Position numbers and translations under genes: made by a program. From contig NC_135241.1 in NCBI RefSeq assembly GCF_947623445.1, positions 1,614,501 to 1,678,500 of the forward strand: a stretch of DNA of 64,000 nt, written 5' to 3'. Shown piece by piece: positions 1,309 through 56,261 of this stretch. Numbering within the stretch: position 1 is the stretch's first letter; every line of letters begins with the position of its first letter. The notes under the pieces were generated by a model. It saw only the letters and a program-made list of their open reading frames with translations, was not told where the DNA came from and did no database searches. This stretch comes from Clavelina lepadiformis. Lineage: Eukaryota; Chordata; Ascidiacea; Aplousobranchia; Clavelinidae.

Positions 1309-3503
1309 ATGCTGATGGACAACGTTGGGAAAATTAATTTTGCTGAAATTCCTGCCACGGATCCGGTAAACAACGACAGGTGAGTCAGTTTACGATGTCT
1401 ATGGAATATTCTTGAAGTCGCTGTACATGCGCTCTATGACGTACAAGCTTGAAGTACGTTTACAAACTCTATTATCGCGTCATAGTCCGGCGGTGGTTGC
1501 TTTGATTTATGCGTCATAATTTTGGACTTTGCAGCGTAGTGGCAAACAGCACAGAAATTATCCCCCTCCAAAACCAAAAGTGGACCAACAAATGGAACAC
1601 GTTTTGTTCGTACGAGACTGACCAAGTTTGTGCAGATATTCCACTCAATCAATGTCCTACATGCAGGTGGGTGGTGCGTTGAAGTTGATTTTGAAGCATA
1701 ATCGCTGTTTATATGACAACTACAGTATATACGTAGTTGATTTTTCATACAAAAACATGGTGGATTTAAAATTGTGTGTGTGGATTGTGTAAATTCAACA
1801 GGTTGTGAATTTACTGTAATTTGGATTTAATAATTTGACGATATGATTTTACGTCAATCATAAATGATGACCGACCGTAAAAAATGACTTTTTTACAGCC
1901 AATACTCATTTTGGATCTTCTTCGCTTTAATTGGTTTTCTTGCAATCTGGATTCTTTGCTCCAACTCCTTCGTCATCGCTTTCGTCATCAACGGAAAGAG
2001 GGAGCATAGAACGAGTTTGAAGTATCTAAAGGGGTCACTTGCGGTCACCGACCTTCTCACAGGTACAAGGTCAACAATAAACCCAGGTTACTTGAGGTGA
2101 TAATGTTTCGTTTTGAAAGTTCAATTCGTCATTGCAGGAGTCTTATTAGTGTGTGTCGCGTTGCCTAACATCGTTTGGACGACCCAAGTCACGTCGGAGG
2201 AATTATATTTCGAGACTCGCAAGAGGGCGGAAACAATTGTCGCCATCTTAGGTTCATCTTACTTCATGCTTGTGCTCACGTCCACCCTATACCACCTCGT
2301 GCTGATGAGTTATAACCGTTTTGCCGCCATCAAGTGGCCATCGCCTCAAAACAAACCCAAGAAGTTGAAGAGAAAATTGATGGTTTTGTGGATTCTTGCG
2401 ATCGTCGCTGCTTCCTATCCAGGTGAAAAACGACCCTTTTCGTTGCTAAAATGGGACCTTTTCGCTGCAAAAGCATGATATGTCGTTTAAAGAAATTTTC
2501 AAAAATCTCCAATGCATCGTGTATGGAAAAAACAAAATCCGGAAACTTTACAGGAAAGACGCCTCGTGGTTCTAGAAAAGAAATTTTAGTCATCAATGTG
2601 TCAATGTTTTCTTTCTTTTACAGCCTGGTTTACCGGCTCCTTCCACTTTTATTACATGTATTTTACTTTCCTCTATCTGCCAAACATCACCATAAAATCA
2701 CCGAACCAACTTCTTCAAGCGTTTGGGCTTTTTATGATCATTGCGCTTCCATATTTGGTCATGGTATGTATATAAGCTATAATGCAGAGAAACTTTAAAT
2801 GCGATAACGTTTAACATAAGATTCGTTCAATGAAGCAAATCTGTAAGGATTTCAGGTGGCTCTTGGTAAATTTATGCTTTTCCTTTGCAGACCAGCTTCA
2901 CAATAGCGACGGCGATATTGATACGACGCGCCAACCGAAACGCTCGAGAACATTTGAGCGAATCGATCCGGGTTCGAAACCAGATAATTCACAGAGAAAA
3001 AGCAGCTTACAAGACCCTGGCTATTATGGAACTCGGGTTCACAGTTACTTTGCGTAAGTTAACCGTTAAGATTATTTTTTTAGGGCTAGCAGACGTGTGT
3101 AACTTTCCCCGGCAGTTAAAGTTCTTGTCAAATTCTTCATCATTGATATCTTTCTAAATATATTTTTTTGCAGTTCCAGGCCTAATAGTACTCGCCCTAA
3201 CATATACCGGTCATGGACATTCAATTGCTTACATATTCATGACGTATAGTGCTCTGTGCAACAGGTGAGTTGGTCATTTTGATGATTACGTGCTTTAACC
3301 ACATGTAAAATTAGTAAATTAAAATTACAATTTTCTTCCAATGCCATTGATCTTACTTTTTATCTTTCAGCGCCATCAACGTCCTGATATACAGAGCCAG
3401 AGACCAAGAGTTTCAGAAGTTCATGAAACAAGTCTCGGAGAAATCTAAACGAACCATAAGATCTTCCTTTCATAAACAGAATGGATCCCCCGTGGTTGTC
3501 TGA
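1309..3503 (+). CDS. Orphan seven-transmembrane receptor, paralogue 1
   Basis: Eight exons at 1309-1379, 1535-1666, 1899-2062, 2138-2422, 2624-2763, 2891-3053, 3174-3264 and 3371-3503. All junctions are GT-AG and in frame, giving 392 aa. No signal peptide is evident. The extracellular N-terminus (about 1-68) ends in C48-x7-C56-x7-C64-x2-C67 just before TM1. Class A traits are LKGSLAVTDLL in TM2, an NRF triplet (182-184) where DRY is expected, the W of TM4, and NVLIY (352-356) in place of NPxxY. There is no Cys at the start of TM3 or in ECL2, and no CWxP in TM6. The likely role is a plasma-membrane chemoreceptor or peptide receptor; the ligand is unknown. It is the divergent, oppositely oriented relative of the two genes at 6.7-11.8 kb. 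The start is the first Met of an exon whose phase fits exon 2, and the paralogues begin with a similar short exon. Confidence 0.88.
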
Positions 3504-4826
3504 CGTAATCACATAAGTGAAAGCATAGACATCTTAACATGATTTAAATCATATTATGCGACATATTTTGTGATCTTTACCGGTTTGCTTGATTTTGTCC
3601 GGGTGCGAGAAGTATGTTGTGATCTTTATGTGTGCAAGTTCTTTCATTCACTGTTCCATGATTTGGTGCAATATTCTTACCACACATTAATAACAGTCAA
3701 TTAAACTTAAAACGTATTTTACTTTCTCAAATTAAATTTCAATTCTCAAATGAAAAAAAAAACTATTTCACCCGAGCTCTTCACTTTGTACCTGTTCTTC
3801 ATTCTACCAAATCTTCAATACTGAACTACGATGTGCTGCTGTCAGTGTTTTACAAACTACCTGCTGTGAATTTCGCTATTTCACATTTGCTGTGTCATTG
3901 CATTTGTCAACCGGTTGCTGTGTCTGAGAAAAGCAATTTTAAGCTATTTATTGCAGCTGAAAATTAAGGAAAATACATAGAATTTTGCTAAATATTTAAA
4001 CTGTAGTTGTATCATCCTTAGTGGTTAAGGTGAATCTTTGCAAAATATTGATTTCTTGGTTTGATTGCCCGATGGCGACACCTTGCGGCAGGAAAAATGA
4101 TTCTCATACTGTATAATGATGATATGGACGCGGTTTAGAAAAGTATTCGTAATAGTCCTTTTATCATAGCTAACATTGTGTAGTATCAGGTAAATTTTAA
4201 AAAAAATGTTTGCATTTTAAAACTAGAATAACAAGTAGTAACTGGTAACTGAGTTATAAACAGTAACTGCCAACTGGTAATCTGGTAATTGTGTTAGTAA
4301 CTAGGGCACCGGTAAAGAACTCCACATCGGTATACAAGTCATAATATTAAAAAAGATAATCAACCATCCTCCTGTTATGATGGAATAATTTGTTTGGTAT
4401 GACGTCACAGAATAACAGATAATGAACACCAGAGCTTGAAACATCTTTCAAGCGTGACCGGCTGACGGAGTTTCAGGTCGAACAAACTTCACGCAACTTC
4501 ACATGAAGCTTCCTTAAGCGTTTTATTAACTTTTGTCTGATTTGTGCGTGTGATGTGCATTCATCAATTTGTACGCTTTTCTTATCAATCATTCTTACGC
4601 CTCAGCTGTCACCTGTAGCCTACATAAGCCTTGTTTGTGGCAGTCACCGAGACAGAAGATTTCTGCTTCAAATCAAAGATTCAAACCTGCTTTGTTCGAT
4701 AGGGAATTTCACTGTAAAAGAGCAACCGACCAGGCAGGAACGGATGTGATTCCACCAGCAATGGTGGAGCCTTTTTTATACCGGGTGGGCTCACTAGCGT
4801 ATTTAGGATTGCTTTGATGGGGGCCC
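3504..4826. other. Intergenic stretch, no gene seen
   Basis: AT-rich sequence between receptor 1 and the right inverted-repeat arm. It has short CTGGTAACT-type tandem variants near 4.23-4.30 kb. The block ATCTTTCAAGCGTGAC (4446-4461) recurs inverted near 5135-5150. The small open frames around 4.55-4.82 kb lack splice or homology support. Confidence 0.6.
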
Positions 4827-6509: not shown

Positions 6510-6733
6510 CAATCAATCGTGCAAGTATAATCTTGCCACACTTACAAACATAAACTTTAAAAAAATTTGAAAAAACGCAGATGTATACACATATTCTTCA
6601 TATAAGTTTAGAATTCAATACTAGAAAAGGTGACAGCATAGCCTACAAACATTTAAAAACTGTTCCAAAATAAACAATTTAAAAAAAAAATTTGTATTAA
6701 CAAAAACTCTATTTTTGTTAACTACAGAAACTT

Positions 6734-8936
6734 TCACACAGCTGACGTAACCCTGTTATTGGATGGATTGGGTGATCTCATGGTTGATCTCCATCTGAAG
6801 TTCCTCCCTAAAACGTTTGTCACAAAATCCTTGAAATCTTGGTCCTTGGCCCGATATATCAAGACGTTGATTGCACTAAAGAAAAAACGTAATTCTTTAT
6901 TTGGAATCGTGCAGTAAGCTTAAGTTCTAAATAATCCTACTTTGGCTGTAAATACTGTAACTCACCTGTTGCAAAGGGCACAGTAGGACATGAAGATAAG
7001 TGCTATTGGATGACTGATTCCAATAAAACTTAATCCGAGGACTATTATGGTTGGCACTGAAAATAACGATATATTTTTTGACAATATTGAAGATAAGCTG
7101 GAAAATAAATGGCAATTTTCAAAAGTTTCCTGCAATTTTAACTGTTTTCTGAACTTCTTCACCAATGCTTACCATGAGTGATTGTGAATCCGATCTTCAT
7201 CGTCGCCAGAGTTGTTAGAACTGTTTTCTCTCTTCTTATAATCTGCTCTTGGACCCGGGAAGATTCGCTCAATTGTTCTCGGGCTTTTCTGTTGCCTCGA
7301 AGTATGAGAATCGCCGTCGCAGACAAAATAACCATCTGAAAAAATAAAATCAAACTCGTTGAATAATAAGATGTCTCTGTTGGAATTGGACTTACACTTC
7401 TAAAGAATTACTTCTCTTTCATCTTAAAAAACTTGCATAATCACCATGGCCAAATATGGCAAAACAATCAAAAGGAAGAAACCAACAGCTTGACCCAACT
7501 CGACGCTGGAGTGTATTAAAATGTTTGGCAGAAAGAGAAATGTGAAATACGTGTAATAAAAATGGAAGAATCCAGGAAACCAGGCTGTAAGGAATAGTAT
7601 TCAATAAAATATTTCTAAAGTTTAATCAGATTTGCAAACTCCCGAAAAAATTTACGAAACCATAAACATAACCACAGCTACCTGGATAGGAGGCAGCCGC
7701 CAAGGCAAGAAGCCACAAAAGCAACAAATTGATTCTTGTCCTCTTGACTGTTTGAGACGCCAATGGCCACTTGATGGCAGCAAAGCGGTTGTAGCTCATG
7801 AGGACAAGATGATAGAGGGTTGAATATATAAGAAGCAAGTAAAGAGTGGCAGAGACGATGGCAACTCGAGTGTCTGCCAACTTGCGGGTTTCAACGTACA
7901 ACTGTCTTGAGGTTAATGGTGTTGTCCAAGCAATGTTGGGCAATGCGGTGGTGAACAATAAGATTCCTGCATAGAGTCAAATATTCATAAATTTATTGAA
8001 ATAAAAACATAATTCAAAGTTTTTTTCACTTTGTGTCGTCACATTTTAATAATTCGTCATCACAAATACTATTTGTCGTGTCTTGTATCATGCTGGAGGT
8101 CTTGAGTACAATTCTCGGTGAAGATAACTGCTTTGTTGTTGTTGGCTTATTATTTTTATAATGGTACCTGTAAGAAGGTCAGTGACCGCAAGTGACCCCT
8201 TAAGCAGGTCCAGGCTGGTTCGAAGCGATCTTTTTCTTTTGATGATGTAAGCAATGACAAAGGAATTCGCCAAAAGAATCCAGACCGCCAGAAGAAAGAT
8301 CAAAGTAAAAAATAACCAAAACGAGTAATGTCTGCAAGAACAAAAGCGCGCCTTGTCATTGTGACACAATAAGCTATTTTTATTTTATTTTGTCTTCTTT
8401 CAAGTCTATTTTAAGAAGCATTTATGTAGAAGAAATTTGCATTTTAAAGTAAAATTTACAGAATGTCCAAATATTAACTCTTACACAAAGTCAGTCGCAT
8501 TTTTAACAATCAATTACTTCGACTCGCCACCCACCAACCTACAACCCATCACCTACCTGCAGGTAGGGCATTGATTGAGTGGAATATCTGCACAGACTTG
8601 GTCAGTCTCGTGCGAACAAAACGAGTTCCATTTGTTGGTCCAATTTTGGTTTTGATGAGCAACTATTTCCGTGCCGTTTATATTTCTGCTGAAAAATGCT
8701 TTTCAATTAAATCTGCAACTCGTAGACCATACGTAGCTATCAATATGGCTTGATCTTATGTCAGTTTAGACTTTACATTCACAATGTTAAATACAACAAC
8801 GCCTTAATTAACGTGATCATGACCATATATTGGTTGATTCACCTGAAACATTTTGCATAGTTTGATCAACTTACCTCGTGTTTAGTATCTCTGTCGCTGT
8901 AAAATCTCTAAATATAACTTCATTTCCCTGCGTCAT
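6734..8936 (-). CDS. Orphan seven-transmembrane receptor, paralogue 2
   Basis: Exons from the 5' end are 8936-8875, 8688-8557, 8331-8168, 7966-7682, 7584-7445, 7335-7173, 7056-6966 and 6875-6734. Exons 2 to 7 have exactly the lengths of receptor 1 (132, 164, 285, 140, 163, 91), and the total again encodes 392 aa. The N-terminus starts MTQGNEVIFRDF and ends in the C-x7-C-x7-C-x2-C motif before TM1. TM3 ends in YNRF, TM7 contains INVLIY, and the tail is short and basic and ends TSAV. N-x-T sequons in the ectodomain suggest glycosylation. It is a near copy of receptor 3. A TATATAAG box lies about 210 bp upstream of the ATG and is conserved in the duplicate. Ligand and G-protein coupling cannot be read from the sequence. 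Confidence 0.9.
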
Positions 8937-9582: not shown

Positions 9583-11760
9583 TTAAACAACTGGCGTAAC
9601 TCTGGTATTGGATGGGCTTGATGATCTCATGGTTAATCTCCTTCTAAAAGGCTTCTCAAAAACTTCTGTCAAAAAATTCTTAAAATCTTGGTCATTGGCC
9701 CGATATATCAGGACGTTGATTGCACTGAAAAAGAAAGATTATTTACGAGTTTAATATCTGTCTTGTAAATAACTCCTAACTTGAATATAAAGACTAAAAC
9801 TCACCTGTTACATAGCGCACAGTAGGACATGAAGATAAATGCAATTGGATGAACAATTCCATCAAAACTTAGTCCGAGGACTATTATGGTTGGCACTGAA
9901 AGAAAATATTTATGTATTGTTTGAAAACTTGGGAAGAAATAACAAGTTTACAAGATTGCCAATATTTTTTGTTGGTTTACGAACTTTGTCACAAAATCTT
10001 ACCTTGAGTGAGAGTGAATCCGAGCTTCATGATCGTCACTGTTCTTAGAACTGCTTTCTCTCTTCGTATTATCTGCTCTTGGGCTCGGGAAGATTCGCTC
10101 AAATGTTGTCGGGCTTTTTGGTTGGCTCGCAGTATGAGTATCGCCGTCGCAGATGTAATACCACTCTTAAACACAAAATAAAACCGGTTGATTAACAAGA
10201 TGTCTCTGTTCAAATTGGACCTGTACTTAACTATTTCAAGACATAGGCTACAATTTTGTCTTCTAACAAGCTTGCATAATCACCATGGCCAAATATGGCA
10301 AAGCGAGTAAAATGAAGAGACCAACAGCTTGACCCAATTCAACACTGGTGTGTAAAGAAATGTTTGGCAGAAAGAGAAATGTGAAATACATGTAGTGAAA
10401 ATGGAAGGATTCAGGAAACCAGGCTGTAAGGAATACAAGTTTACTGGTGACAATTTCCACAGTTTGATCAAGTTTTAAGTTTACGTTTTGGAATGCTATG
10501 ACCAAAACTCCAGCTATATACCTGGATAGGAGGCAGCCGCCAAGGCGAGAAGCCACAAAAGCAACAAATTGATCTTTGTCTTCTTGACTGTTTGAGGCGC
10601 CAATGGCCACTTGATGGCAGCAAAGCGGTTGTAGCTCATGAGGACAAGATGGTAGAGAGTTGAATATATAAAAAGCAAGTAAAGAGTGGCGGAGACGATG
10701 GCAACTGGAGTGTCTGCCAACTTGCGGGTTTCGACGTACAACTGTCTTGAGGTTAATCGTGTTGTCCAAGCAATGTTGGGCAATGCGGTGGTAAACAATA
10801 AGAACCCTGCATAAAGACAAAGATTCATAAATTCATTGAAATAAAAACATATTTCAATTTTTTTTCATTGTGTGTCGTCACGTTTTAATAATTCGTCATC
10901 ACAAATACTATCTGTCGTGTCTTGTATCATGCTGGAGGTCTAGAATTCAATTCTCAGTAAAGATAACTACTTTGTTGTTGTTGGCTTATTATTTTTAAAA
11001 AGGTACCTGTAAGAAGGTCAGTGACCGCAAGTGATCCCTTAAGCAGGTCCAGGCTGGTTCGAAGCGATCTTTTTCTTTTGATGATGTAAGCAATGACGAA
11101 GGAATTCGCCAAAAGAATCCAGACCGCCAGAAGAAAGATCAAAGTAAAAAATAACCAAAACGAGTAATGTCTGCAAGAACAAAAGCGCGTCTTGTCATTG
11201 TGACGCAATAAGCTATTTTTATTTTATTCTGTCTTCTTTCAAGTCTATTTTAAGAAGCATTTATGTAGAAGAAAATTGCAATTTAAATTAAAATTTACAA
11301 AATGCCAAAACATTAATTCTTACACCAAGTCAGTCGTATTTTTAACGATGAATTATTTTAACCTACAACCCACCACCTACCTGCAGGTAGGGCATTGATT
11401 GAGTGGAATATCTGCACAGACTTGGTCAGTCTCGAACGAACAAAACGTGTTCCAGTTGTTGGTCCACGTTAGGTTTTGAGGGGGGATAATTTCCGCGCCC
11501 TTTGTATTTTTGCTGAAAAGTTCTTTTCAATTAAACCTGCAGCTTGTAGACCATACGTAGCTATCAATATGGCTAGATCTTATGTCAGTTTAAACTTTAC
11601 AGTCACAATGTTAAATACAACAACGTCTTAATTAACGTGACCATGACCATATATTGGTTGATTCACCTGAAACATTTTGCATAGTTTGATCAACTTACCT
11701 CGTTTTTAGTGTCTCTGTCGCTGTAAAATCTCTAAATATAACTTTATTTCCCTGCGTCAT
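9583..11760 (-). CDS. Orphan seven-transmembrane receptor, paralogue 3
   Basis: Exons are 11760-11699, 11512-11381, 11170-11007, 10806-10522, 10423-10284, 10165-10003, 9895-9805 and 9724-9583. All are in frame and encode 392 aa. The gene has the same plan as receptor 2: N-terminal exon MTQGNKVIFRDF, the four-Cys motif before TM1, YNRF after TM3, and INVLIY in TM7. Differences from receptor 2 cluster in the ectodomain (for example RNING becomes KNTKG), ECL2 and the C-terminal tail. Such a pattern would suit changing ligand preference, but I have not measured substitution rates. Nothing breaks the frame, so both tandem copies look functional. Confidence 0.9.
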
Positions 11761-12262: not shown

Positions 12263-13878
12263 ACAATAATTTTAAAACCATTAAACTCTGCTCCGTCATA
12301 TTATTACATTTTGGACAAGTGCAAGATATACAATGTATGCAGTATGATGCATGGAGAGTATGATGTAGACAGTATGTCTGTATGAGATTTATTCTAAAAA
12401 TCAAAACAATAACAATTTATTAAAAGATGTATTATGAAAACGTAAAACATCGAATGACGGCAGACAGCGTGACTTGGAAAGCACATTTAATGGCCGTCGT
12501 TTGCAAGAAATGACAAAACAACAAGCCTGACGTGAAGTCACAACACAATGAGACAATAGACAATACCCACATACAATGCCTAATACGAAATCAACCACAA
12601 CACCAAGTTAAAGTTTATGAGTAACTGACCACAAAACCATTTTAGTTCGTACTTAAATTGTAGTTTAAACGCATGTAATATTTTCATTTTTTTAATGGAA
12701 TAATTCTATTTTTGTTCAATAGCTAATTTATCGAGCATATAAGTTGCCAAAATGCTTGTTAAGTATTGCAACTGATAAATTGTGCAACGAAACAAACACA
12801 TCAATGCGTCATAAATGTATCATTTTGATAGCAAAAATGATGCGGGTATAAGCGTTGACGCACCCTGCCTTATCCAATCGATCGCAAGATAAAGCCTTGT
12901 TATAATCATCTTTTCAGAAGAACTAAAAGGTACAACAAAACAAAGTCCAACAAATGCGTATAACCTACTGCTTATACGTAATTTGACCTGAAAACAGACA
13001 TGTTAACGTTCAGAAAATTCTTGATTTTCTCGGTCATGAATTGCCTTAAATAAAACATAGAAACTATTTGAATGAAAGCTGAAATACAGCAAGAAAGCTA
13101 TAACCAAATATCAAAAAACGTCCCAGAAGTGTCTTTTAATCCTTCTGCACCTTTCATTCACAGATTTATCTGAAGATCAGTTGAATACGAAATGCGCAAG
13201 ATGGCTTCAATGAATCTTGATGATAATAATTAATCGCTGACACATTTGACTTCTAATAGCTGGTGCTTGGTATAGTGAATATTCACAAAATTTTATTCTT
13301 CATCACGTAATGCTGAGTAGTGGGTTACAATTTTGACAGTTTCAATTTGACTGAATATCAAATGAAATTAACCGCAGTGGTTAACAGCTTATCAATCCTG
13401 CAACAAGCTTAAAGCACAGATTCTCGGAAGCAGCAAAGCGCAAACTTTACGAAAACAAATTATGTAACGACTTTCTCCTATAAAAGGTTCTATTCCTGAT
13501 CGAATTTCCACAAATCCTTTCTATTACAAGGTTCAGTGGCAACAGACACGTTTGATGTGGTTTCGTTAATGCCAAGTGTGTAAGTTTCATAATGCACTTC
13601 GCCTAATTAAAATCCACATTTTATCATAGTGTAGTGGATTATAAATGGATTTTCTCATAATATCTTCCGCGAAAACAGGAAACCATTGTCTACGTAAGAG
13701 GTTTAAACTCGTCAAAACAACGTTTTACGAAGAAACAGGAGAAAAGCACCTGAAGCATTATAAAACCAGCTATAGATGGAAGAGCAGTCAGACACAATTG
13801 ACTTGTCATTGCGGAAAGAACAACAGATTCAAGATAAGTCGATTTATTCAAGAAAACAACCAAAATTCAACCGCGATT
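12263..13878. other. Intergenic stretch, no gene seen
   Basis: AT-rich sequence between the receptor array and the ficolin-like gene. A small degenerate repeat of GTATGATG and GCAGTATG units lies near 12.33-12.38 kb. The frame of the ficolin gene is open upstream to 13645, but that extension has no signal peptide or domain and is treated as 5' leader. Confidence 0.6.
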
Positions 13879-15538
13879 ATGAAGATCCTGGTTCTTCTCT
13901 TGCTCACTACATCATTGGCGGCTTTGGCAATGACGCAACAATGTCGTGAGGTCACTCGCCAAGTCATGGTTTGTGATGATGACGCAAGCATCCGTGGAGG
14001 AAAAGGAGATAAAGGTGATGTCGGATCCAACGGAAAAGCAGGTCCTCCTGGAATCAAGGGATCAAAAGGAGATCTTGGAGGATCCGGCGAGAAAGGAGAT
14101 CAAGGAGAATCGTGCGCTCTTGGATCGTTTGAAACGGAAATGCGGAACAGGATGAATCGTAAGATCATAAAAAGCGGCAAAGAATCTAGTACTACAACTT
14201 AACAATTGTATGTTCAATCCAGGCTTAGAAACAATCCTAACCCAACCGACGTCGTGCTTGACGTCATTGGACTTTGGACAACAAACTCTTCGCTCTGGAC
14301 TTGAAGTGTTTTGTGACGGAGGATGGACAGTAAGTGAATAATTGTTTCCAATTTTGTTGTGAATTAAATTTGAATAAGTCAAACGTAAAAAGCTGCGTTT
14401 TTTCTACAATATGTAATGGCCAATACAAGGTATTCCAGCGACGTTTTGACGGAAGCCAAGATTTTCAGCAAAACTGGAACAGCTATAAATTAGGCTTCGG
14501 TGACCTGAGTGGAGAGTTCTGGCTCGGTAATGTATTGCTGTGTAACAGCTTCTTGTTTTTCCTTTGTAATAATTGTTTTTAAATATCTATTATATATATG
14601 TTATCACAAATATTCGTAATATTTTTGAGCAGGTTTGGAAAATATTTATCAGTTGACCAAACAAAGAGGATGCAAACTCCGTGTAGATCTATGGAGCTAT
14701 GATGGAGATCACGTCTTCGCTCAATATAGGTAGGACTTTATCATGCTCTGTGACACAAAGTGAATTTCGAACATTATTGAGAAATAAAACTTATCCTTTC
14801 AGTGATTTTTCATTGGAAGGTGAAGAAGACAAATACAGATTACATGTTAGGGGATACAGTGGTACTGCAGGGGACAGTCTTACACCAAGCGGCACCACTG
14901 ACATCAATGACAACAGCCGTTTTTCAGCATATGACCAAGACTTTGATCATTGGAGGTAAAACACGAAACGAAACCAAATTTTTCAGTGACTTTTCGTCGG
15001 AAGGAGGACAAACGAAATGCTGGTCACCCTTCATGTCAGAAAACATAATGGTACAGCAGGGTACAGTCTTATATCTAGCTGTGCCACTAAAGTCAACGAC
15101 AGCATCCGGTTTACAACCTACTACCAGAAACACGATAACTAGGGGTCTAAGATTGAAAATTTAGAACATATGCTTTTTCAGGATTAAAGGAATAGTCTAC
15201 ACTCTATAATAATAAAGCGACATAATCTCAGACGTTTAAGAAATGCATTCACAATTCTTGTTTATTTCTCGGTTTAAAATTATTTCTCAACTTTAACGAA
15301 GAATCTAAATCAACAAAAGTAAATGAATTTTTTGTGTCCCACTTAATACAGCGGCAGCAATTGTGCCATCGACCAGGCGGGCCATCTAGGCGGATGGTGG
15401 TTCAACACCTGCGGACATTCTCGCCTAAACGCTCAGTGGGGACCTTCACGAGGTGCTTGGTCTGGGATTGTGTGGAATTCATGGAAGGGCAGCGGTGAAA
15501 CTCTCAAACAAACTACGATGAAGCTGAGATGTGATTAG
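13879..15538 (+). CDS. Ficolin-like collagen/fibrinogen-domain secreted lectin
   Basis: Exons 13879-14158, 14223-14329, 14430-14526, 14633-14729, 14803-14955 and 15352-15538 join in frame to 306 aa. The start is the Met of a clear signal peptide ([17 protein letters not shown]). A short Cys-containing segment (C22, C32) follows, then 13 Gly-X-Y triplets (residues 40-78). A fibrinogen C-terminal domain occupies the rest, with [48 protein letters not shown] and a final KLRCD. This is the ficolin layout: collagen stalk for trimer formation and partner binding, FBG head for acetylated sugars. Ficolins act as secreted pattern receptors of the lectin complement pathway. With about 13 triplets the stalk is short. 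The upstream in-frame Met at 13645 would bury the signal peptide and was not chosen. A decayed duplicate of exon 5 lies in the last intron. Confidence 0.92.
14987..15142 (+). pseudogene. Decayed tandem copy of ficolin exon 5
   Basis: It follows a good acceptor (TTTTTCAG) and aligns along its length with exon 5 (14803-14955): SDFSSEGG against SDFSLEGE, then [14 protein letters not shown] against [14 protein letters not shown]. The two similarity blocks are in different frames. It ends in an in-frame TAG where exon 5 has its donor, and the GT donor has become GG. It should be skipped, with exon 5 splicing straight to the exon at 15352. If included it would truncate the FBG domain. Confidence 0.8.
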
Positions 15539-18079: not shown

Positions 18080-21000
18080 TCATCTCTCTTGGTTAGCTGC
18101 ACTGAATGTCCCTGAAACAGAGTTGAATATAACTGGACACGATAGGAATTAGATAATATATTTTTGAAAAAAAATATTCCATATTTGAAAACATACAGGA
18201 AAGAAATCACAGTGAGGACTCGTGGAAAGATGACAGGTAAATGCATCGCGGTGCTTGGTATTTGCCCGAGTGAAGAAAGGTGGTAAAAGTAAAAAGCAAT
18301 TCGACATTTAAATTTTATCGCGGTCAAGCTGGAGTCAAGCCGAATTTTTTCCAAGTGTAACCTCTTCGCTTTTTACCTTGCTGGCCATTATTCAATGGTT
18401 TAGGTCGTGGGTTGCTGGTAATTCGAGGACCGGTGTATTGAAGACTGTTTGGAAATCGAAATATTGTCTTCAGATCTTCAGTAACCTTCAGTATATGAGT
18501 TTCAACTAGTTATGCGGAAAAATTATTTCGATCCTTGACATTGAAATAATTCAATAAACGAAAAGTTTCCGCAATACGTTTCCGTCAATCACAGGTATCA
18601 GCTTTGTACCAGGTAAAAGTTAAGTGGCCTCAAATAATAGCTTGGGAGACCACTCTATCTGGAACCGAGTAACTGCACCGCGGTAACATGTAGCCTACCA
18701 AGGTATATAGTGAATGCATACACACGTTCATGTATTATGTCATTTAGCAACAGCTTTTATGCACATGCAATTTTTGCTTTCGGATGAGATGGTATCTTTG
18801 CATATAAGAATTACGTGCACAAAAATCGTGCAAAAAACAAACCGTGTTTCCACAACAAATCGAAAAAAGAAATGGAAACACTGTTGCACCCACCGATTTC
18901 TTCTCTCTGATGATTTCCTCATCAGTTGGCATCCGCCTCGCTCCCGGAGTTCTCGTTTCTGCTGTGGTGAGTCTATCATTCTGCTCAGCAACATTATCTG
19001 CTGCCATGACGTCACTTCCTGTTGCGAGGGCACCTGTCTTGGCCGACCTTGCGCTGTTTCGTGACTTTCGACGCGACTCAGCTCTAAATCACATAAAAGC
19101 AACTAACTGCACATGGTGGGAAAGGATTTTTCACAGTTGCACACCGTGTTAAGCATACAAGTTCACACTGCATGCTATCAAGCACTTTGACGGTAGAAAT
19201 CCAGACAGAATAGCAATAGCAGTGCAGTGGTTGACAAATGTCAGTGCTTGCTGGCAAACCGCGCTTTATCTAAAATCATAAACATACTTGGACACAACCG
19301 GTGGAAGTTTATGCCGTGAACCGACCATGACAGCTATCTGCTCCCTCGCAATCTCAGCTGCCTTGCTCTTCAGAACTTCATTCACAGATCGACCGGGAAA
19401 CAAGCGAGACACCAAAGGAATAATCTGAGAAAGTCAAATAACGGGAATGTAGGAGTATAAAATATAAATGTGATGTCGTAACAGCAGACATTAGTGATTA
19501 GTCCAAATGCTAATACAAAAAAATAAGAGATTGTACAAATGGAATCAGAAGTTTCAAAGATTACATTAATTCCCTTTCCAGCAATAATGTCATGTCATGT
19601 AATTGTAACCTGACCAATCATAATTATTCCGAAGACAATAGAAAGAGGAGGAATGAAACCAACCTCCTCATTATTAGGATCAAGATGGAGTGAGATGAGG
19701 ATGTCCTTCCTGGATGCATCAACATCCTGCATCATGTAATATGATCTTGCTCGATGCACATAGAACTGTCCGACCTTACCGTTGTGCTCAATCGCAGACG
19801 AGAATCGATCCAGAGCCTCCTGGTACTGTCTGATAAAAAGACGACTCTGTTAGACTTGAAGAACACTTTTGAAGGTGACTTAACAATTTGTGCAGAACGT
19901 TTCGCTTTTGCTCATCTACGGTCACGACCCTTCTGCGGTGGATTAAACTGGAAAGAAATAATAACTTCACGGCCAGATAAGCTTGAGAACTGACGATTGT
20001 GGGCCGAACTCCCGTTTTATTTAACAGACTACAATACAATAAGCTTATTTGTGGCACAGTGAAGCGGACCGGACAAACTAAGCTTGTGAGCCTGATTCTG
20101 CTCCTGGTTGGTGACCCCCAGTTGTCGACTGTGACCTCTGAACTTTATTGTCTTCAATGAACCCAATAACAAGGTATTTTCTATTGTGCTTGTATTGGAT
20201 CAGTGGATCGCAGCAAATCATGTATTTATCACAATAACCGAGGAAGAAGACGCAAACTGCCAACAATCAGAGCAGACTAAAAACTCTCCATCCAACAATA
20301 AACCAATGCAAAAAGCCCAAAGGCTGGAAACGGGCATGATGTTAAAAATCAATGGCGCTTTAAAGATAGTTAGTCAGCAGACAACAGACCCAACTGTGAT
20401 ATGATTTAAAAAGTAATGAAAAGAGACAAGGTATGTATAATTGTATATTGTATAATCATGCATAGATTGCGATTACCTTTCTTGATACGCTGTGATGCCA
20501 AACTCATTGTGAACGACAGCAACTCTGCATTTGATTTCCCAGCTGCCAGGGTCTATCTCCAATCCTTGCTGATAATCAGCCAACGCAAACCCAAGCTCAT
20601 TCAGTTTAAAGAAGCAATCTTAAAACAACATCTGTGTGAGAGCATAGTTCAACGGTTCCCAAACTTTCCTACTTGCGGACCCCTAGCTGCAATAATTCCA
20701 TCCTTGCGGACCCCGACTTCAAAATCGTTACTCAGTAGGCTATTTATGAGGAGTTAAAGTGTTACTCGCAGACCACCACATTTCTGGACCCCAGGCTGGG
20801 AACAGCTGCCAAATGTGATGGCTGACTTACGGAGGTTCACAGTCATAGCAAATTTTTCAAATGAGAAAAGTTTTTTTCTCAGAGACATTTGACGTTTTTG
20901 CTCATGTGCTGGTGGTTAATTTTCAGTTAAAGAAATTTTTACTACTAATCTCCACGCAGGGGATGAAGAAATCGGATGAGCACAAGGCGTTGAAAAATGT

Positions 21001-24000
21001 TTTGACCAACTTTTACAAAAGTATTCGTCAACCACCTACCTCCTCTGTTGATGTACAAGCCTTTTTCATTCTTCTCTCCTTTTATTGCTTTGTTTAAAAG
21101 AATTACAGCTTCTTCATAAAATCCCTTAACGAAATTGAACACATGATTCAGTTTACATTGCATTGTATGGTACACAGTATAGCATAAGTACACACGATGC
21201 TGACCAACAAAAACTATTTAAAGTTATAACAATGCAAATATTCAAATAGGTCGAGTAACATTACCAAAAGTTATTATCAAATAGCAACTAATGTATTTTA
21301 AGCTTTAAGCATAAACTATTATGGCAGAAACTAATTACGCTGGGCAGAAACTTTACCCTTTGATAGCAGTGGACTGCAAAGTCGTTGTAAGTGAGAAGTA
21401 ATTGTCTCTGTGCTCCCTGGTACACGGGATCCTGTTCATTGTGGTCTGCTTTATCCATCGCCAACAAGTAATCATCAATCGCTGTGTTGAAATTTTGCAA
21501 ACGACGATACAACGCACCCCTGTGGTGGTAAATGTTCATGATATCAATGTCTTCTTGTACGTTACTGACACGCTTTATGTGACACAAAAAAGGAAGTGTC
21601 GATTCCAATACTGGTAATTAATTGACCCTTCAAAGGTGTAACTGACATTGATATTCAACTTTTTCTTGACCAGTCATTAAAGATTTAAAAGCAAATGTGG
21701 ATCACCTCAAAACATGGTATTCTGACTTTGAGGGGTCTGTCTCGACTGCTGTTGTGATTTTGTTCAAAGCTTCCTGAAGCTTCCCCTTTTTAACAAAACA
21801 TTGGCATAAAAATTCAACTCAAATCTAGCAGAATTGATACAACCAAAGTAGAATATAAACTTGAAGCTTGGAAGAGCATAATGAATGACTAAACCTGGAT
21901 GGTGAGTGACATGGCATGTTGTTTGCTGTTCTCCGCTTTCTCTTGAATCTCCTTCATAAGTTGCACGGCTTGAGGTTGCTCGGAGTCAAGAGACAAAGCA
22001 TCACGGACATCGTAATAGCACAATGTCGTCTACATGAAAACATTTTCAGTATTTGCCGGTAGGAATGCAGTAAAACAAAAATTGAAAACAACTTTCAACT
22101 CCATATAACAAACCACATAACATTACACCGTTACAATCTCAAACCGCCATATGAGTATTGTAAAAACTACAAAGCACAGCATTAAAATAACTGGATCTAG
22201 CAAGATTCCTTGGGCTATTCTCTAATTGTGAGATAAATTTTTAAATTATGAACTAAATCAAACCACAAGTGCATGAACTTACAACTTTAAACTCACGTTT
22301 TGGAATAAAAGATGCAACCGTGCTCTCAAGACATAGAGTTCAGGATTTCCTGTTGTCTCTGCTTCCAGTCTACGAGTTACCAAAGCAAGACATTCCTGAT
22401 TTCGACCAAGGGAAGCTAGGCACGTTATCGCCCTCGTGTGGTAACCTGACGCAGACGGTTTCATTTCAGTGGCACGAGTGAAACATTCTAAAGCTTCAGC
22501 GTACAGACACTGGTCAAATAAGCATTGACCCTGTATAAAATGAAGTGAAACTTGGTAAAGCGAGTTTTCTCTATGTCATAAAGTGTGCGATAAGCAATAA
22601 GAGGGATTAGGGTGATAGAAAGATTAGTTCAAAATTGAGAGAGTCTGCAAATACACATCGCGTCCTATATAAAGTTTTCAATACAAAACAGTCATCCTAA
22701 ACACCGTGTATTACCGTTTCTCAAACAATTAAAATACCTGAAATACTTGCTAACATGTAATTTTTTAAATACTTCCACATTTGGTATATTATTACTACAG
22801 TATAATAGTTAGCATAGAAACAAATCATTTAATTCTTAATCTACGTAATAATATTAACCTCAAGGTAACATATGAAAGCAAGTTTGTCAAAAATATGTGG
22901 GTTGTGTGGTTCCAGTGCATACGCTTTCTTGTAGTTGAGATGAGCAGAACGAAAATCACACATCTGCATGTAGGCTTCAGCACGCTCGATATAGCAGGAC
23001 ACGTCACAAGGTTGAAGGTTTATTGCTTTGCTGAAACTGGTTACAGCCGCCTCAAACTGGCCTTGATTCGCTTGGGCTATGCCACGGTTGTAGCTGTATA
23101 ACAAATTGTCAATTTTCATAACAGACTTTGAAGATGAAATAAATAAAATGACAACTTGTATCCAGCTTACGAAGCAATCAGACGCTACCAGGTAGATCAA
23201 AAAGTATTATGTCGTCACCGAATGAATGTTATAAGGCAATGTTCCTATAGATGGTATAAAATCAGTAAACAGTTGTTATGAATTTTAAAGCATACATATG
23301 GAGAATTACTTACTGCTCGAGAACTTTCTCGTCAATCACTTGCTGCATGGTTAGTCGGACAGGAGGATTGTCAGGATCGTACATCCTTACTTCTTGCTCC
23401 AGCTTCCGGCGTTGCTGGCGTCGGCGGGCTTCATCCATTTCCTCTTCTGGAATCGATGTTGAAAACGTTTCACTTCCAGTCTGCAGGAGAGATGTACGGT
23501 ATTCGGTTTAGTATTTAAAATAAAAAATTATCCGGTAATTACCGTTATTATAACGGTAAAGAATTGAAAGTTTTATTCCAACTTGGGGAGCGGGACACTT
23601 CAGCTTTTAAAAAATATGTTTGACCCCTCACTTCAGAATTATATGCCTTAACATTTAAGCTTAAACTTTCGCCAGCTCAAACTAATAAAAGATGTGATCA
23701 TCAAACAAACCTGCGTCTTCTGCAGATCTTCATCAGTTATTGGTGGTGGAGTTGCAAGTGTTTCTCTCAATTGCTATGGAAAACAAACAATAAAATTCAT
23801 TACCATGGGTACCACAAATGAAAAATAATTTAGCAATTACAAGTATTAAAAATTCTGAAATGGTCTATGTCCTTATCAATGGGGAAGCGTTACTATCCAA
23901 GGAACGCACAGTGAGGGTAGTACTGCTGACACCAATTGTGACTTTGTCACCAACGCATCGCCATACCTTCTGGTAATGGTGGGTGCAATTTCTGAATGGT

Positions 24001-25551: not shown

Positions 25552-28087
25552 TTAACGTCAAACTAGCTAATTTTACAAATTTCTCAACTTTTCTGCAATG
25601 GGAACAATTCCACAAATGTCAATTCATCAAATTTATACATATACCACATGTAACAAGTTTAGCAAGGATTTAGCATATAGTTAGCATGACCTTTCAACCC
25701 AGACTTAAGTTTTCATAGATTTTAATGTGAACTTAATAAGCAATACAGTTGCGGTAAGACAAACAGCAAAAGCGATACAGTTAACATACACTAGCCACTC
25801 GATCTTATTCAATTATATATATATTTATTCATGGGGATAAAAACCATTGTAGAAAGTGTGACACACACATACTACCAGACTTGCACACCAAACGTTTTTA
25901 AGCTCGGACAATTTCAAGATTTAGATTATCAACTTGGATTACGTTCAGTGGTCCTTAGGTTCTGTTGAACAGTTTTAAATTCGAGTAGTCTAAAACCACA
26001 AAATAGGCTAACTTAAAAACCAGATAAAAATGCATTTTTCATCTGCATACAGACAAGCTCGATGGCGGATGACCAAGGCTCCAAAGTGAAACATGGCACA
26101 AGTGAGAATTATACCAACGTGGACACCAAACTATTTCAAATTCACAAAATCACATGAATTAATAATAAATAAGGCAAAATCAGTTTTTTGAACAGAAATT
26201 TATGATAAATTAACAAAACATTTAGGCTTATAGCCTTAGTGGATGTTGTCATGGCATAATGCACAACTTGTATCTTTACACGTTATGGTAGTCCAGGTTG
26301 TTGAGTTTGGCATAGGCACACTCAATACTAAGCTTCAGTGCTGCACTTAAGGTGAGTTTTTTTGCACTTAATGACTTTGACAAAACTTCTGTGGATTCAA
26401 TTTTCAATTGATTTAAGGCTTGAATAAGTCAAACTATGTGCACTATTGTGTAATTCCATAGCTAAGTGCACACTTCCAAAGAATCTGAGCATTTTTGCAA
26501 ACTGCAATTGTCATTTTTGGTTGTTTGGCGCACCCAAGATCTTGCTGAAAACGGGCAAACTTTGCAGTCTGGATGGTAGTCAATGGTATAGTGGTAAGTG
26601 TGGTAACTGTACGGCGAAATTTTCATCTTAAAAAAGTCGATTTAGGCTACAATACAGAAACAAGGAATCTTTAGCTGTTTTAACGCCAATTTATAATAAA
26701 TAAACAAATAACCGAAGATTCCGTGCAAGGAAAATATTTGTCTTCACAGACTTTACAAGCACGATTTACTTCGCAAACAGCAATATAGGCTACTTTGTAC
26801 TGCAATAATCTGGGATAAAAAAGAAGCAGCCCATATAAACCAGGCTAACCATTGTCGTAGCCTATGGCTGTACAGCTGTATGGGTAGATAAGCTAGCCTA
26901 TTTATTACAGTATTACCCAGGCATTACCGCAATAACCAATAGGCTAATACCAATAATCATCATCTGACAAAAAAAGGTCTAATCCTATCAACTTGGGCTA
27001 TTTAAACTTTCCACAATAACTCCAAAATACAAACGTAATGACAAACACAATACAAACAAGAGAGGTAAGGTGCAAAAATCAAAAACACTCTGCGCTTCCT
27101 TCCGGAAACTACAACGGTATCAAATCTAGAGCAATCCTTAACTTCTTGTTGCTAACCAGTTGGCAAATCTATTTGTTTGGGGTAAAGTAATGTCTCCAAA
27201 ACATTGTAATGAAAATTAGGCAATGTCACATATCTTTATATGTCACATTTTTACTAAAATGTTGTATTGATGTATTATGAAAATTTTGCTGCATTTAAGA
27301 GTTTAATCATGTAAAATTTTGCAAACTAACTTTAAAAGCTCTTACGTTTAAGGTTAAAATAAGTTTACAATCTTATATATTTTACAGTGATACAAAAATC
27401 TTGGATAATCATGCTCTTCAGCAATAAAGTGGAAAAAAAAGTTGCATTTGTGAAAATAAGAAGTTATTTTGTAATATGTAGGAATGAGTTACTATTCCAA
27501 AATAAATTTCTATTTTCTACAGAAAAATTATGGCGGTTATTCCATCTATGACTATGTTTTTTGACGTCATACAAAACAATAATGATTTGTATTAACTCAG
27601 TTTATTTACAGATGATTTCTAAGGCCAATTTATCAAACTATGGCACATATCAATTTCTTACGGTTACAAAACAAATTGGTTAGCTTATTCTAACCGGTAA
27701 TAAAAAGGTTTTACCGTCAATTAGATGGACGATAATAACCACGTCTATTGTGGACTACTTTCAGGAAAATGTGCTGTCCATTCAGCTCGCGGAAGTAAAT
27801 ATTTGTGTCTTTATTAAATTCCATTTACTGCAAAATCGAAAAATCGTTGTTTTATAAATCGATATCATTAACGTTTTGCCTATTATGTTATTTGAAGTTG
27901 CTAAGAAAGCAAAAGAAAGGCGCCCACAACCAAAAAACGAATGAACAAAACGTTGGAATAAGTTTATACCAGCTCAGTGTAATGCGGTCAGAGTTACAGT
28001 AGCCTACCACTGGCTATAGATGCTGTTGTAAGCCAAAGCAAACTATATTTTAATTAGTAAGCTATAGCTTAAAGTTTGAGGAAGGCA
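25552..28087. other. Intergenic stretch with repeat-like segments
   Basis: AT-rich sequence between divergently transcribed TTC16-like and receptor 4 genes; their promoters must lie here. Around 26.68-26.79 kb it has a segment similar to 57.90-58.00 kb. I found no splice-supported coding sequence. Confidence 0.6.
26685..26790 (+). repeat. Dispersed repeat segment (copy 1)
   Basis: GCCAATTTATAATAAATAAAC and the following bases, then GCACGATTT about 75 bp later, resemble 57.90-58.00 kb in the same order and orientation. Family and full length are unknown. Confidence 0.4.
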
Positions 28088-31000
28088 ATGCGAAATTTCA
28101 GCTTCTTTTACTTGCTCTTGGATAGAGAGCCCTCGTCTGCGTAAGTATAAACTGTGTTTTGAATTAGCGTGCTTTAAAGTACGCATTTGTGCATTAAAAA
28201 TGTTTTGAAGTATTTTCTTTTCACAAATCTTAGTCTACTTCAAAAAATTTTAAAATCATTAAAAATCAATAGGTCGAAGAACTGGTTAAAAAATATGTTA
28301 ATAAATACAAGATAGGTCTATTGCCTACAGTTTACTAACCTACTACTTACTCCTAACTTACTTCCTTCGAAAAAAGATTAAGCTAGGATTAGTTAAAGTT
28401 ATAGTTAAGAATAAGTTATCTAAAAACATTTAAATAATTATTGCTTTAGGCCTACTTGTATTATCATCACTTGCCCGTCCTTAATTTAACTTCAATCGTT
28501 TAAAAGGTAAAAGTATAAAAGTAAATTTGATATCGCTTTGACTTGGAATCTGTTTTTGATTTTAGCAACAACTTTCATCAAGATGATGAAAAGGAGCCGA
28601 CGAAAATCTTCGCAAACTTATCTGACAATAATCATTTAATAAACACAACTATGTGTGGATTTCCTGCTTTATGCTCTGCCGACGCCCACCGGGAATGCTT
28701 CGACACCCCCCTATATGCATGCGACGCGTGTGGGTGAGTCGCTTTATTTTATTTTGAAATATATCTCTCTACTAATTTGTAAATGTAGGCCTAATGCTGC
28801 TTTACCTTGGTTTTACTACTTGATTGTCGTATAAAACATTTAATTTATGATTTTGCCAATGAGGCGACGGAACACAATATGAACATTAAACACTCTGCAG
28901 TTTGTGGTAGGAAACTACAAAATAAAATTATGAATCGATTTATCCAGCTAGCTTATTATTAAATAAGCTAAATTATTTTATGCAAAAGCTATTTCTTGTT
29001 GTCTGACATTAACTAACTTAAATCTAAATTATTTTTCAGACACGCCAGGACAGGAATTTTTATATTTGTTATAACAATAACTGCAATCCTTATTCTGATC
29101 TGCAATTTTCTGGTCATCTTGTCGGTTTATTTGACAAACAAACAAAGAAGAAAACACATCGAATACCTGAAAGGTTCGCTTGCAGTGGCGGATATGATGA
29201 ACGGTTCGTATGGCGACGCAAGGAATTCAGTTTGACCAATTTGTACACTTGCTCTGCTTGAGCTGTTATGGTATATTATTTCATCAAGCTTACAAATTTT
29301 TTGGTCAAAATTTAGGCATTCAGATTATGTTTGTGACGTTACCAAATGTCGTTTGGTCTCTTCGACTCAGTTCATCGGAAATAGACAGAATTCAATTCGC
29401 TTTACGCGGAAGCGTAAAGGCCACAATCGGCGGCATCTTCTTCACTTTGATCTACTCCTCGTCAATTTACCATCTGCTCCTGCTCAGCCTGCAGCGCTTT
29501 GCTGCCATCAGATGGCCGATTTGGTACAAAACTAAAGGAATGCAGCACATGCCGCTTATGATTGCCATCGTGTGGGCAACTGCAATTCTGGCAGCCAGCG
29601 TTCCAAGTCAGTTATAGACTCATAGAACTATTATTATCAAATCAGATGGTTGAGAGCTGAAAAGGGTTCTGTGCTTGTTTCTTCCTGCGGAAAACTAGGC
29701 CTGTCAATGTCTTAGTCGGAAAACTAGGCCTGTCAATCGTAACACTCCTAATGTATTTGCGAGAATAAAATTTAGGTATTTATATATTTTATATATATAT
29801 AAGTTAGTTAGACTCGCCTTCACAATTTAGCTTATATCATTTTAAATATAAGCCTAATTTCAAAATAAATAAAAAAGCAAGTAACGGTTTTTGTTTTAGC
29901 TTGGTTTCCTGATAGCTTTGTGTTTGCTTATTCTGCCTCTGTATTCTTGTTTGTACCGGCTTTTGACAGCTTGGATGCCCTTTTTACATCGGGTCTACAG
30001 GTTATTAGCGGATTTTTTCTACTGCCGTACCTCATGATGGTAAGTTGAGCACGGATTTAAACGTTTTAAGCATGAACAAAATAATTTGAATTTTTAAAGG
30101 TTTACATTTACAACTACCTCATACTAACTAATTATAAATCATTATAATATCTCACCTAAATAAAAGTTCTAAAATTAAAAAATAAAGTTACAACCAAGCA
30201 GTGGTAAAAAAATTTCAGCTTAACCAATGTCAATGGCAAAGACGCCAAAATGCTGCTTTTGTAACGAATATAGTGTTTCTTAGAGCGCGTTGACAGTGGC
30301 TACAGGTCTGATCGTCCGGAACACGATGGAAAGATCGAGAAAACTGAGTGGATTTCATCACAAAAAGACAAGTTTTAACAAAGAAACAAGAGTTTTGATA
30401 ACCTTGACATGCATGGAGATAGGATTTACAGTAACATTACGTACGAGAGAAAAAGTCTTAACAGCATGTTTACAGTTAGAAGTTACTAAACATATAAAAG
30501 TAAATGTTTTACCGCGAAAGCACGGAGGTTCATTTCATTATTAAATTTTGATTTTGCATTTAAAAAAACTAAAGATAAACTAAAAATTCAAATAAATCAA
30601 ATCGTCATAAAATTATTATTATTGCTATTAACTATTATTAACTTACTGTTTCCGCAGTTCCTAACACAATTGTAGTTCTCATGTTTTACTTCGGACAATT
30701 GGATTGTGATTCCTTCTCCATACCCTATCTCATATCATTCTACCTTTCAACATTAAACAGGTAACATTGGAATTTGATATGAATTGAGATAAACGGTGTC
30801 TCATGCCAGACGTGCAACTCGTAATTTAGCATGTTAATTTCTAAGTTACTTTATTTATTAAATTATAACGTTTTCTTGTATGGAGTATATATAGTTGTAG
30901 GTGTGTGAATCACTTATAATACAGTATCTTTATATATAATTACAAAACAGCATATGACATAGTTACAGCTACATACGCATATTTTTGGAATTTTTCAGCT

Positions 31001-54938: not shown

Positions 54939-56261
<1,323 letters not shown>

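Follow-up and report, generated by a model that had tools for sequence, protein, structure and literature searches.

The stretch of DNA analysed here (the window, 64,000 nt in length) contains four class A receptor genes, g1 to g4, each intact and made up of eight exons, and a broken fifth, as judged from spliced models (Table 1). All four models have GT-AG introns, continuous frames and a common series of intron phases (2,2,1,1,0,1,2). The products of g2 and g3 are identical at 325 of 392 residues. The broken receptor (31866-32690) was searched for a Cys exon, and none turned up.

Table 1. Receptor genes and cysteine-bearing features of the window; positions are counted from the first nucleotide of the window
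Feature	Position	Strand	Description
Window	NC_135241.1:1,614,501-1,678,500	forward	64,000 nt; Clavelina lepadiformis GCF_947623445.1, chromosome 2
g1 (receptor gene 1)	1309-3503	+	8 exons: 1309-1379, 1535-1666, 1899-2062, 2138-2422, 2624-2763, 2891-3053, 3174-3264, 3371-3503; 392 aa; spliced frame open; Pfam 7tm_1 E 1.5e-16
g1 Cys cap	1605-1664	+	C48-x7-C56-x7-C64-x2-C67; no fifth Cys
g2 (receptor gene 2)	6734-8936	-	8 exons: 8875-8936, 8557-8688, 8168-8331, 7682-7966, 7445-7584, 7173-7335, 6966-7056, 6734-6875; 392 aa; Pfam 7tm_1 E 1.1e-16
g2 Cys cap	8559-8618	-	C45/C53/C61/C64
g3 (receptor gene 3)	9583-11760	-	8 exons: 11699-11760, 11381-11512, 11007-11170, 10522-10806, 10284-10423, 10003-10165, 9805-9895, 9583-9724; 392 aa
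g3 Cys cap	11383-11442	-	C45/C53/C61/C64
g4 (receptor gene 4)	28088-31137	+	8 exons: 28088-28140, 28566-28733, 29040-29203, 29316-29606, 29900-30039, 30284-30440, 30658-30760, 30999-31137; 404 aa; Pfam 7tm_1 E 4.9e-21
g4 Cys cap with fifth Cys	28654-28731 (C-x7-C-x7-C-x2-C part 28672-28731)	+	C48-x5-C54-x7-C62-x7-C70-x2-C73
g4 exon 7	30658-30760	+	ECL3 cysteine C341, 21 residues before N7.49; predicted partner of C48
Broken fifth receptor	31866-32690 (ends approximate)	+	remnants of exons 5-8; disrupted frames; ECL3 Cys present

Exon 2 of all four intact receptors closes with the pattern C-x7-C-x7-C-x2-C, as the original prediction had it; these four exon ends are the only six-frame matches in the whole window, and shuffling it in two-base blocks yields none in any of 20 rounds. 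The cysteines that had been numbered C48, C56, C64 and C67 in g1 are the same residues in the spliced model, while the exon proposed to carry them (1606-1664) proves to be the Cys end of a longer one (1535-1666). The cap residues do diverge between g1-g3 and g4, as had been claimed, with 8 of 20 positions identical, four of which are the cysteines. Among g1-g3 every pair shares 19 of 20 cap residues, far above the remaining N-terminus. Two features had previously gone unnoticed: g4 carries a fifth N-terminal cysteine (C48) and one in ECL3 (C341), and in all four receptors both ECL2 and TM3 position 3.25 are devoid of cysteine.

The joining of the separate Cys exon to TM1, until now a matter of splice-aware reading, can be followed in related loci across the genome. 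Cap and TM1 lie within one open frame in 41 of the 50 loci where both were located by profile; in the window genes and five other loci, exons 2 and 3 are separate. The last cap cysteine (C4) lies 23 residues before N1.50 in every one of 32 distinct single-frame segments, and the four window genes keep the same distance. Because this register is constant, spliced or single-frame, the splice is supported without recourse to RNA; together with the equal intron phases, it bears out the earlier reading, and the assignment of the Cys exon to the receptor is supported.

Related TM3 exons occur at 62 places in the C. lepadiformis genome. All 54 loci that have both TM1 and TM3 exons possess the Cys exon, and 49 of these have a complete cap, that is, four cysteines with the spacing C2-x7-C3-x2-C4. 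The motif of the family as a whole is C0-x5-C1-x(7, 8 or 10)-C2-x7-C3-x2-C4. The C1-C2 spacing is x10 in 36 complete caps, x7 in 12 and x8 in one, so that the x7 form once thought to define the family is merely a subtype; both the length of this loop and the surface residues differ between the subfamilies. The C2-C3 loop harbours an N-glycosylation sequon in 30 of the 49 complete caps under a strict rule (a looser, earlier tally gave 34 of 54), a finding consistent with the secretory lumen. The four window caps all lack a sequon there. Compared on its own with Pfam and PDB sequences, the cap has no family match above chance level, in agreement with the initial impression that it corresponds to no ectodomain known by name, and a search of open-licence papers found no description or name for the cap-bearing family.

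On sequence criteria the family is one of class A (rhodopsin family) seven-helix receptors. Pfam 7tm_1 scores above the cut-off in all three window proteins scanned (g1, g2 and g4) and matches 12 of 12 family members, with E values up to 0.01. R3.50 is present in 44 of 45 loci; rough patterns recover D2.50 in 44, P5.50 in 44 and P6.50 in all 45, and N1.50 in 41, the asparagine being visible by eye in the other four. W4.50 is found in 34 of 45 by a narrow pattern, and in 44 some tryptophan occupies the corresponding part of exon 4. The usual miss in these counts is C2:1984448, a degenerate locus. Several features typical of class A, if not universal, are nevertheless missing. Residue 3.25 is alanine in 43 of 44 cases and serine in one, hence the C3.25-ECL2 pair is absent. 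No conserved pair of cysteines was found in ECL2: among the 34 residues that open exon 5, nine of 45 members have any cysteine, and the first residue of the exon is the only column of that stretch with cysteine in at least 4 of 42 distinct rows. The final six residues at the 6.48 side of exon 6 are free of tryptophan in all 45 members, and N-[V/F/I]-x-x-Y opens exon 8 in 44 of 45 (the remaining one is cut), which leaves no P7.50. The family members read thus lack all three of C3.25-ECL2 pair, W6.48 and P7.50.

The fifth cysteine, C0, is closely associated with a cysteine in ECL3: among 48 scored loci, three of them read by eye in weak matches, 33 have both, 15 have neither and none is mixed. 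One odd locus, C2:5971416, was left unscored. It has the ECL3 cysteine, no cysteine six residues before C1, an extra N-terminal cysteine 16 residues before C1 and a cap that ends in C-x3-C; under a strict rule it is an exception to the co-occurrence. On a tree built without the two exons that carry these residues, each of the two traits changes five times, and they go together in all four independent pairs on well supported branches (sign test, p 0.125, significance being out of reach with so few events). A test of dependent evolution gives a likelihood ratio of 30.8 (p 3e-6), although tests of this kind overstate cases with few events. The correlation (phi 0.95) is the highest among 120 pairs of variable cysteine columns. 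This co-occurrence predicts a disulfide between N-terminus and ECL3, present in g4 and absent in g1-g3. Since g1-g3 have no extracellular cysteine besides the four of the cap, a pure two-disulfide cap would fit these three, and most of the family, g4 included, is expected to have a third bond in addition, linking the cap with ECL3.

In four gene clusters dN/dS lies between 0.13 and 0.42 for all exon sets yielding a value, and no whole exon exceeds 0.42. The Cys exon falls at 0.28-0.36, and positive selection on it was looked for in these clusters and not found. Between g2 and g3 the stretch before the cap has a dN of 0.239 against a divergence of 5-9% in introns 1 and 2, a contrast that may reflect conversion. 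The identity of g1 to g2 and g3 is likewise patchy, 83-86% in exon 2 vs 61-73% in the other exons, which points to gene conversion and makes exon 2 unsuited as the sole basis for trees. An environmental or chemosensory role is suggested by gene arrangement only, namely tandem arrays and recent copies.

The explanation that probably accounts best for the whole is a class A family in which a cap knot covers the helical bundle in place of the TM3-ECL2 lock, with a tether from C0 to ECL3 in most members. The four cap cysteines would form two internal disulfides and thereby a small knot atop the bundle that substitutes for the missing lock. C0 would, in most members, bond to ECL3 near TM7 and close the TM1-TM7 side; g1-g3 would do without this third bond. 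One locus, C2:15404050, has lost C2 and C3 together and retains C0, C1 and C4, a pattern that would suit C1-C4 and C2-C3 bonds, but a single locus is not enough to claim this pairing. An AlphaFold model of the cap exon in isolation (mean pLDDT 52.6, pTM 0.25) is uninformative on fold and cysteine pairing. With lower confidence, the cap may shape the entrance of the pocket, such that ligand specificity would arise from the cap and ECL1-3 combined. Coupling to G proteins is expected since R3.50 is kept, and activation would have to run without W6.48 and P7.50. A bolder and rather doubtful proposal is that the receptors constitute a main chemosensory family of this ascidian with a new ectodomain, in which a disulfide knot fixed to TM1 replaced the TM3-ECL2 lock and the optional ECL3 bond is a switch by which evolution leaves the cap open or tethers it. 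If true, a changed activation path would be needed in receptors that lack the C3.25 bond, W6.48 and P7.50 all at once.

The cap could instead be mainly a folding and trafficking device that stabilises an ectodomain devoid of the TM3-ECL2 bond and contributes neither to ligand binding nor to gating. The superior conservation of the g1-g3 caps and the scaffold-like dN/dS of the Cys exon would suit such a device, but the variable C1-C2 loop and surface residues fit a role in specificity at least equally well, and we regard this reading as possible if somewhat unlikely. An improbable origin for the cap would be as the worn remnant of an LDLa or LRR-hinge ectodomain, the family then being a truncated LGR/RXFP-like branch. 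Kamesh et al. (PMC2396169) do describe LDLa-repeat receptors in Ciona, along with receptors of short N-terminus termed 'unclassified LGR-like', and the next genome matches outside the family include single-frame receptors of about 840 residues. Two of these were read, L063 and L064; Pfam Ldl_recept_a matches both (E 3.3e-22 and 1.1e-16, respectively), yet each keeps the cysteine atop TM3, and its frame is free of C-x7-C-x2-C throughout. With a cap-to-TM4 query in tblastn, L063 gives no match and the L064 alignment begins in TM1, outside the cap. The LDLa scan, which covered 22 caps, 12 members from exon 2 on and three whole window proteins, found no LDLa match in the caps or the 12 members; some members have longer N-termini upstream of exon 2. 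The 840-residue receptors had also been considered as cap carriers, as matches began inside the cap (query residues 7-11); the two read show LDLa repeats and no cap.

That the cysteines hold a metal, in a zinc-knuckle-like fold, rather than disulfides is quite improbable. C-x2-C pairs such as the one that ends the cap are common in zinc sites, and single members of the cap alignment have weak zinc-finger matches in Pfam (best E 0.017, one of 22); these matches are, however, at chance level, the position before TM1 places the cap outside the cell, many caps have a sequon between C2 and C3, and the fifth cysteine accompanies one in ECL3. Least credible of all, and already largely refuted by the shared frames, the 23-residue register and the agreement of intron phases, is the notion that splice sites were read too eagerly and a Cys exon foreign to the receptors was thereby attached to TM1, for which the separate exon 2 of the window genes and five further loci might speak.

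The family can be set beside several known systems. g4 matches the nematode Srx chemoreceptors (Pfam PF10328, 32.7 bits against a cut-off of 23.8), as do 3 of 12 family members, but the g4 match covers only part of the seven-helix region and 7tm_1 scores far higher (75.8 bits). The family resembles the Ciona LDLa-repeat GPCRs (PMC2396169) and L063/L064 in combining a Cys-containing ectodomain with expansion in ascidians, and it differs from L063/L064 in their LDLa repeats, single long frame, retained TM3 cysteine and lack of a cap. Two ascidian surveys arrive at 169 GPCRs for Ciona, with a rhodopsin-type share of about 68% (PMC2396169), and at 204 for Styela clava, of which 152 are class A (PMC9138782); a cap-bearing family with 62 TM3-exon places would be a large part of such an ascidian repertoire. 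S1P1, S1P3, LPA1, CB1 and CB2 also do without the TM3-ECL2 disulfide, and in S1P1 an N-terminal helix packs against the extracellular loops, with disulfides inside ECL2 and inside ECL3 (PMC8779880). The family is like these lysophospholipid and cannabinoid receptors in the missing pair, and unlike S1P1 its conserved cysteines lie in the N-terminus, with no Cys pair inside ECL2. The melanocortin receptor MC4R is not known to have the TM3-ECL2 bond either. A putative disulfide joins its N-terminal Cys40 to ECL3, akin to the bond predicted here, and a four-Cys cap goes unmentioned in the passage concerned (PMC7471746). In chemokine receptors an N-terminal cysteine (1x22) is bonded to Cys 7x24, both are missing in CXCR6, and a cysteine in ECL2 (45x50) is conserved (PMC12435897). 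Their pre-TM1 and ECL3/TM7 cysteines resemble those of the family, and the joint absence in CXCR6 parallels the 15 loci that lack both, the evidence here being co-occurrence only; unlike chemokine receptors, the family has no TM3-ECL2 cysteines and has four further ones in the cap. As g4 has the predicted bond and its neighbours g1-g3 lack it, the window offers a natural experiment in which the role of an N-terminus-ECL3 disulfide becomes testable in receptors without the TM3-ECL2 bond.

Across its six reading frames, the window contains the pattern C-x7-C-x7-C-x2-C four times, always closing exon 2 of one of the four intact eight-exon class A receptor genes (g1 to g4); 20 two-base-block shuffles of the window contain none. 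The original prediction that this motif precedes TM1 in the four intact receptors holds; its further claim that the motif defines the family is not supported as stated, the motif being one subtype of a broader cap, C0-x5-C1-x(7, 8 or 10)-C2-x7-C3-x2-C4, in which C0 is optional. The caps share 19 of 20 residues in every pair among g1 to g3, and 8 of 20 between these genes and g4. Intron phases (2,2,1,1,0,1,2) are common to all four gene models, and Pfam 7tm_1 was matched by all three proteins scanned (g1, E 1.5e-16; g2, 1.1e-16; g4, 4.9e-21). A long GT repeat (92-175) lies upstream of g1.

Features of the window (positions in window coordinates)
Feature	Position	Strand	Basis or remark
Receptor gene g1	1309-3503	+	exon-by-exon model, eight exons
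Receptor gene g2	6734-8936	-	exon-by-exon model, eight exons
Receptor gene g3	9583-11760	-	exon-by-exon model, eight exons
Ficolin-like gene	13645-15500	+	by parts: a collagen region (Pfam Collagen E 1e-5, slightly short of the cut-off), then Fibrinogen_C exons (E 2.6e-14, 3.1e-9)
Tetratricopeptide-repeat gene	19595-23206	-	exon 22844-23206, TPR_2 E 2.7e-12; further frames by eye
Receptor gene g4	28088-31137	+	exon-by-exon model, eight exons
Fifth receptor copy, broken	about 31866-32690		beside g4; remains of exons 5-8, ECL3 Cys kept
Cyclophilin-type peptidyl-prolyl isomerase-like exons	33220-34830	+	by eye
Long coiled-coil frames	40047-51971	-	exon 51630-51971: CAP-Gly-like start by eye, no Pfam match
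Single-frame 440-residue protein	54942-56261	-	BTB_3 domain, E 1e-44

Genome searches with g4, part of g1 and part of a member of the C1 cluster (C1 to C8 followed by a colon or a megabase range denoting contigs) found related TM3 exons at no fewer than 62 places plus two partial ones, a hand count over three search lists that is a lower bound. They form arrays on C1 (25.5-25.7 Mb), C2 (1.60-1.72, 1.98-2.13, 5.97 and 15.4 Mb), C6 and C8, and isolated ones lie elsewhere; the window itself corresponds to C2:1614501-1678500. The sequence read covers all except seven of the 62 places (five at C2:1.69-1.71 Mb, two copies at C2:2.009 and 2.025 Mb). Profiles built up from the window genes served to locate the exons, yielding 60 entries, of which some are fragments. 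A Cys exon lies upstream in exactly the 54 entries that have both TM1 and TM3 exons; most were found with a profile seeded from the window Cys exons, so that their likeness is partly by selection; TM1 exons came from a profile of their own, and a few outliers were identified by eye. Of the 54 Cys exons, 49 fit C-x(7,8,10)-C-x7-C-x2-C, with a C1-C2 spacing of x10 in 36, x7 in 12 and x8 in one; the five exceptions have lost C3 (one) or C2 and C3 (one), are frame-broken (two) or read x7-x7-x3 (one). In all exon sets yielding a value, drawn from four clusters, dN/dS is 0.13-0.42, which indicates purifying selection, and as a group the genes therefore look functional.

Recent duplication is evident at C2:1993000-2044600, where segments repeated at distances of about 15.5 and 16.4 kb hold the copies C2:1996143, 2011687 and 2028114, identical across the exons compared, and where two copies of another gene have a frame-broken Cys exon. 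Among g1 to g3, exon 2 (1535-1666, 8557-8688 and 11381-11512) is 83-86% identical between g1 and g2 or g3, against 61-73% for the other exons; between g2 and g3, identity is 87% in exon 2, 95% and 91% in introns 1 and 2 and 99% in exon 3. Because exon 2 of g1 is unusually like those of g2 and g3, and theirs are less alike than introns 1 and 2, these comparisons suggest that exon 2 has been exchanged between the copies by gene conversion.

Cap and TM1 share one open frame at 41 of the 50 loci having both exons by profile, the remaining nine including g1 to g4. From C4 to N1.50 (class A position numbering) there are 23 residues in all 32 distinct single-frame segments, which were pattern-matched, and in all four spliced models of g1 to g4. 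In place of RNA evidence, this shared frame and fixed register give the strongest support at hand for the join.

A fifth cysteine, C0, stands six residues before C1 in most members, g4 included (C48), and a cysteine of extracellular loop 3 (ECL3) lies within residues 12-20 of exon 7 (in g4 C341, 21 residues before N7.49). Across the 48 loci scorable for both, three of which rest on reading by eye (C2:1715750, C7:15293301 and C4:6294868), both are present in 33, neither in 15, and no locus is mixed. Outside this set, C2:1984448, which has lost C3, has neither; two frame-broken copies seem mixed in the automatic alignment, C0 lying there in another frame; and C2:5971416, whose cap ends C-x3-C, has the ECL3 cysteine, no cysteine at the C0 place and an extra one 16 residues before C1, which under a strict rule makes it an exception. 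The pair has the highest phi (0.95) of 120 pairs of variable cysteine columns (42 distinct rows). A tree was built with exons 3, 4, 5, 6 and 8, omitting both exons that bear these residues; on it each cysteine changes five times, and the two go together in four of four independent pairs on well supported branches, fewer than the sign test needs (p 0.125). Model comparison favours dependent evolution (LR 30.8, p 3e-6, 47 tips), by a test that can overstate few events. Genes g1 to g3 belong to a seven-locus clade (C2:1.60-1.72 Mb) that lacks both cysteines; g4 sits on another deep branch, its exact place unsure given long branches.

The class A features are kept in part. Of 45 loci, among them one degenerate locus and some identical copies, 44 retain R3.50 (in ERF, ERL, NRF and the like) and 44 have N-[V/F/I]-x-x-Y in TM7, without the proline; all 45 lack tryptophan in the final six residues of exon 6, where 6.48 lies, and nine have a cysteine anywhere within the opening 34 residues of exon 5, on the ECL2 side. 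Position 3.25 is Ala in 43 of 44 loci and Ser in the other.

The cap itself resembles nothing convincingly: a profile of 22 caps reached a best E of 2.7 against PDB sequences, and against Pfam the same caps scored no better than chance (best E 0.017). With a profile of 12 members, many class A structures are hit, the beta-2 adrenergic receptor most strongly (E 1.4e-15); among the 60 matches listed of 260, the best-matching stretch always begins after the cap. AlphaFold models of the four window Cys exons (mean pLDDT 52.6, pTM 0.25) were uninformative on pairing. In g1 to g3 the four cap cysteines are the sole ones outside the helices, as placed by sequence, and would therefore pair among themselves if oxidised within one chain; a sequon in the C2-C3 loop of 30 of the 49 complete caps, and of none of the four in the window, fits an extracellular, oxidising location. 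The cap is a real and well bounded feature, wider than the motif originally proposed, and its anatomy, its register before TM1, the joint C0 and ECL3 cysteines and the absent TM3-ECL2 cysteines are shown by sequence. It probably holds two internal disulfides, with a third from C0 to ECL3 in members having C0, and could serve as a lid and scaffold where the ligand enters; the tandem arrays and recent copies suggest a possible sensory role.

The genome holds a second expanded receptor family with LDLa repeats, represented by two single-frame receptors of about 840 residues, L063 (C4:23020800-23024400) and L064 (C7:2569500-2573000), with nine more candidate places that have frames of 740-874 residues; L063 and L064 have another ectodomain and keep the TM3 cysteine, like the LDLa-repeat receptors described in Ciona (PMC2396169). 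By the tests made, the cap family is class A and lies outside the chemokine, lysophospholipid/cannabinoid and MC4R groups. It resembles chemokine receptors, in which a cysteine pair joins the N-terminus to ECL3/TM7 (CXCR6 having neither; PMC12435897), in matching an N-terminal with an ECL3 cysteine, the bond here being predicted; for MC4R a bond between Cys40 and ECL3 has been proposed (PMC7471746). The family is without TM3-ECL2 cysteines, and S1P1, S1P3, LPA1, CB1 and CB2 are likewise without the TM3-ECL2 bond, the N-terminal helix of S1P1 being packed onto the loops (PMC8779880). To all of these the Clavelina receptors add a four-cysteine cap, which the available portions of those descriptions do not mention.
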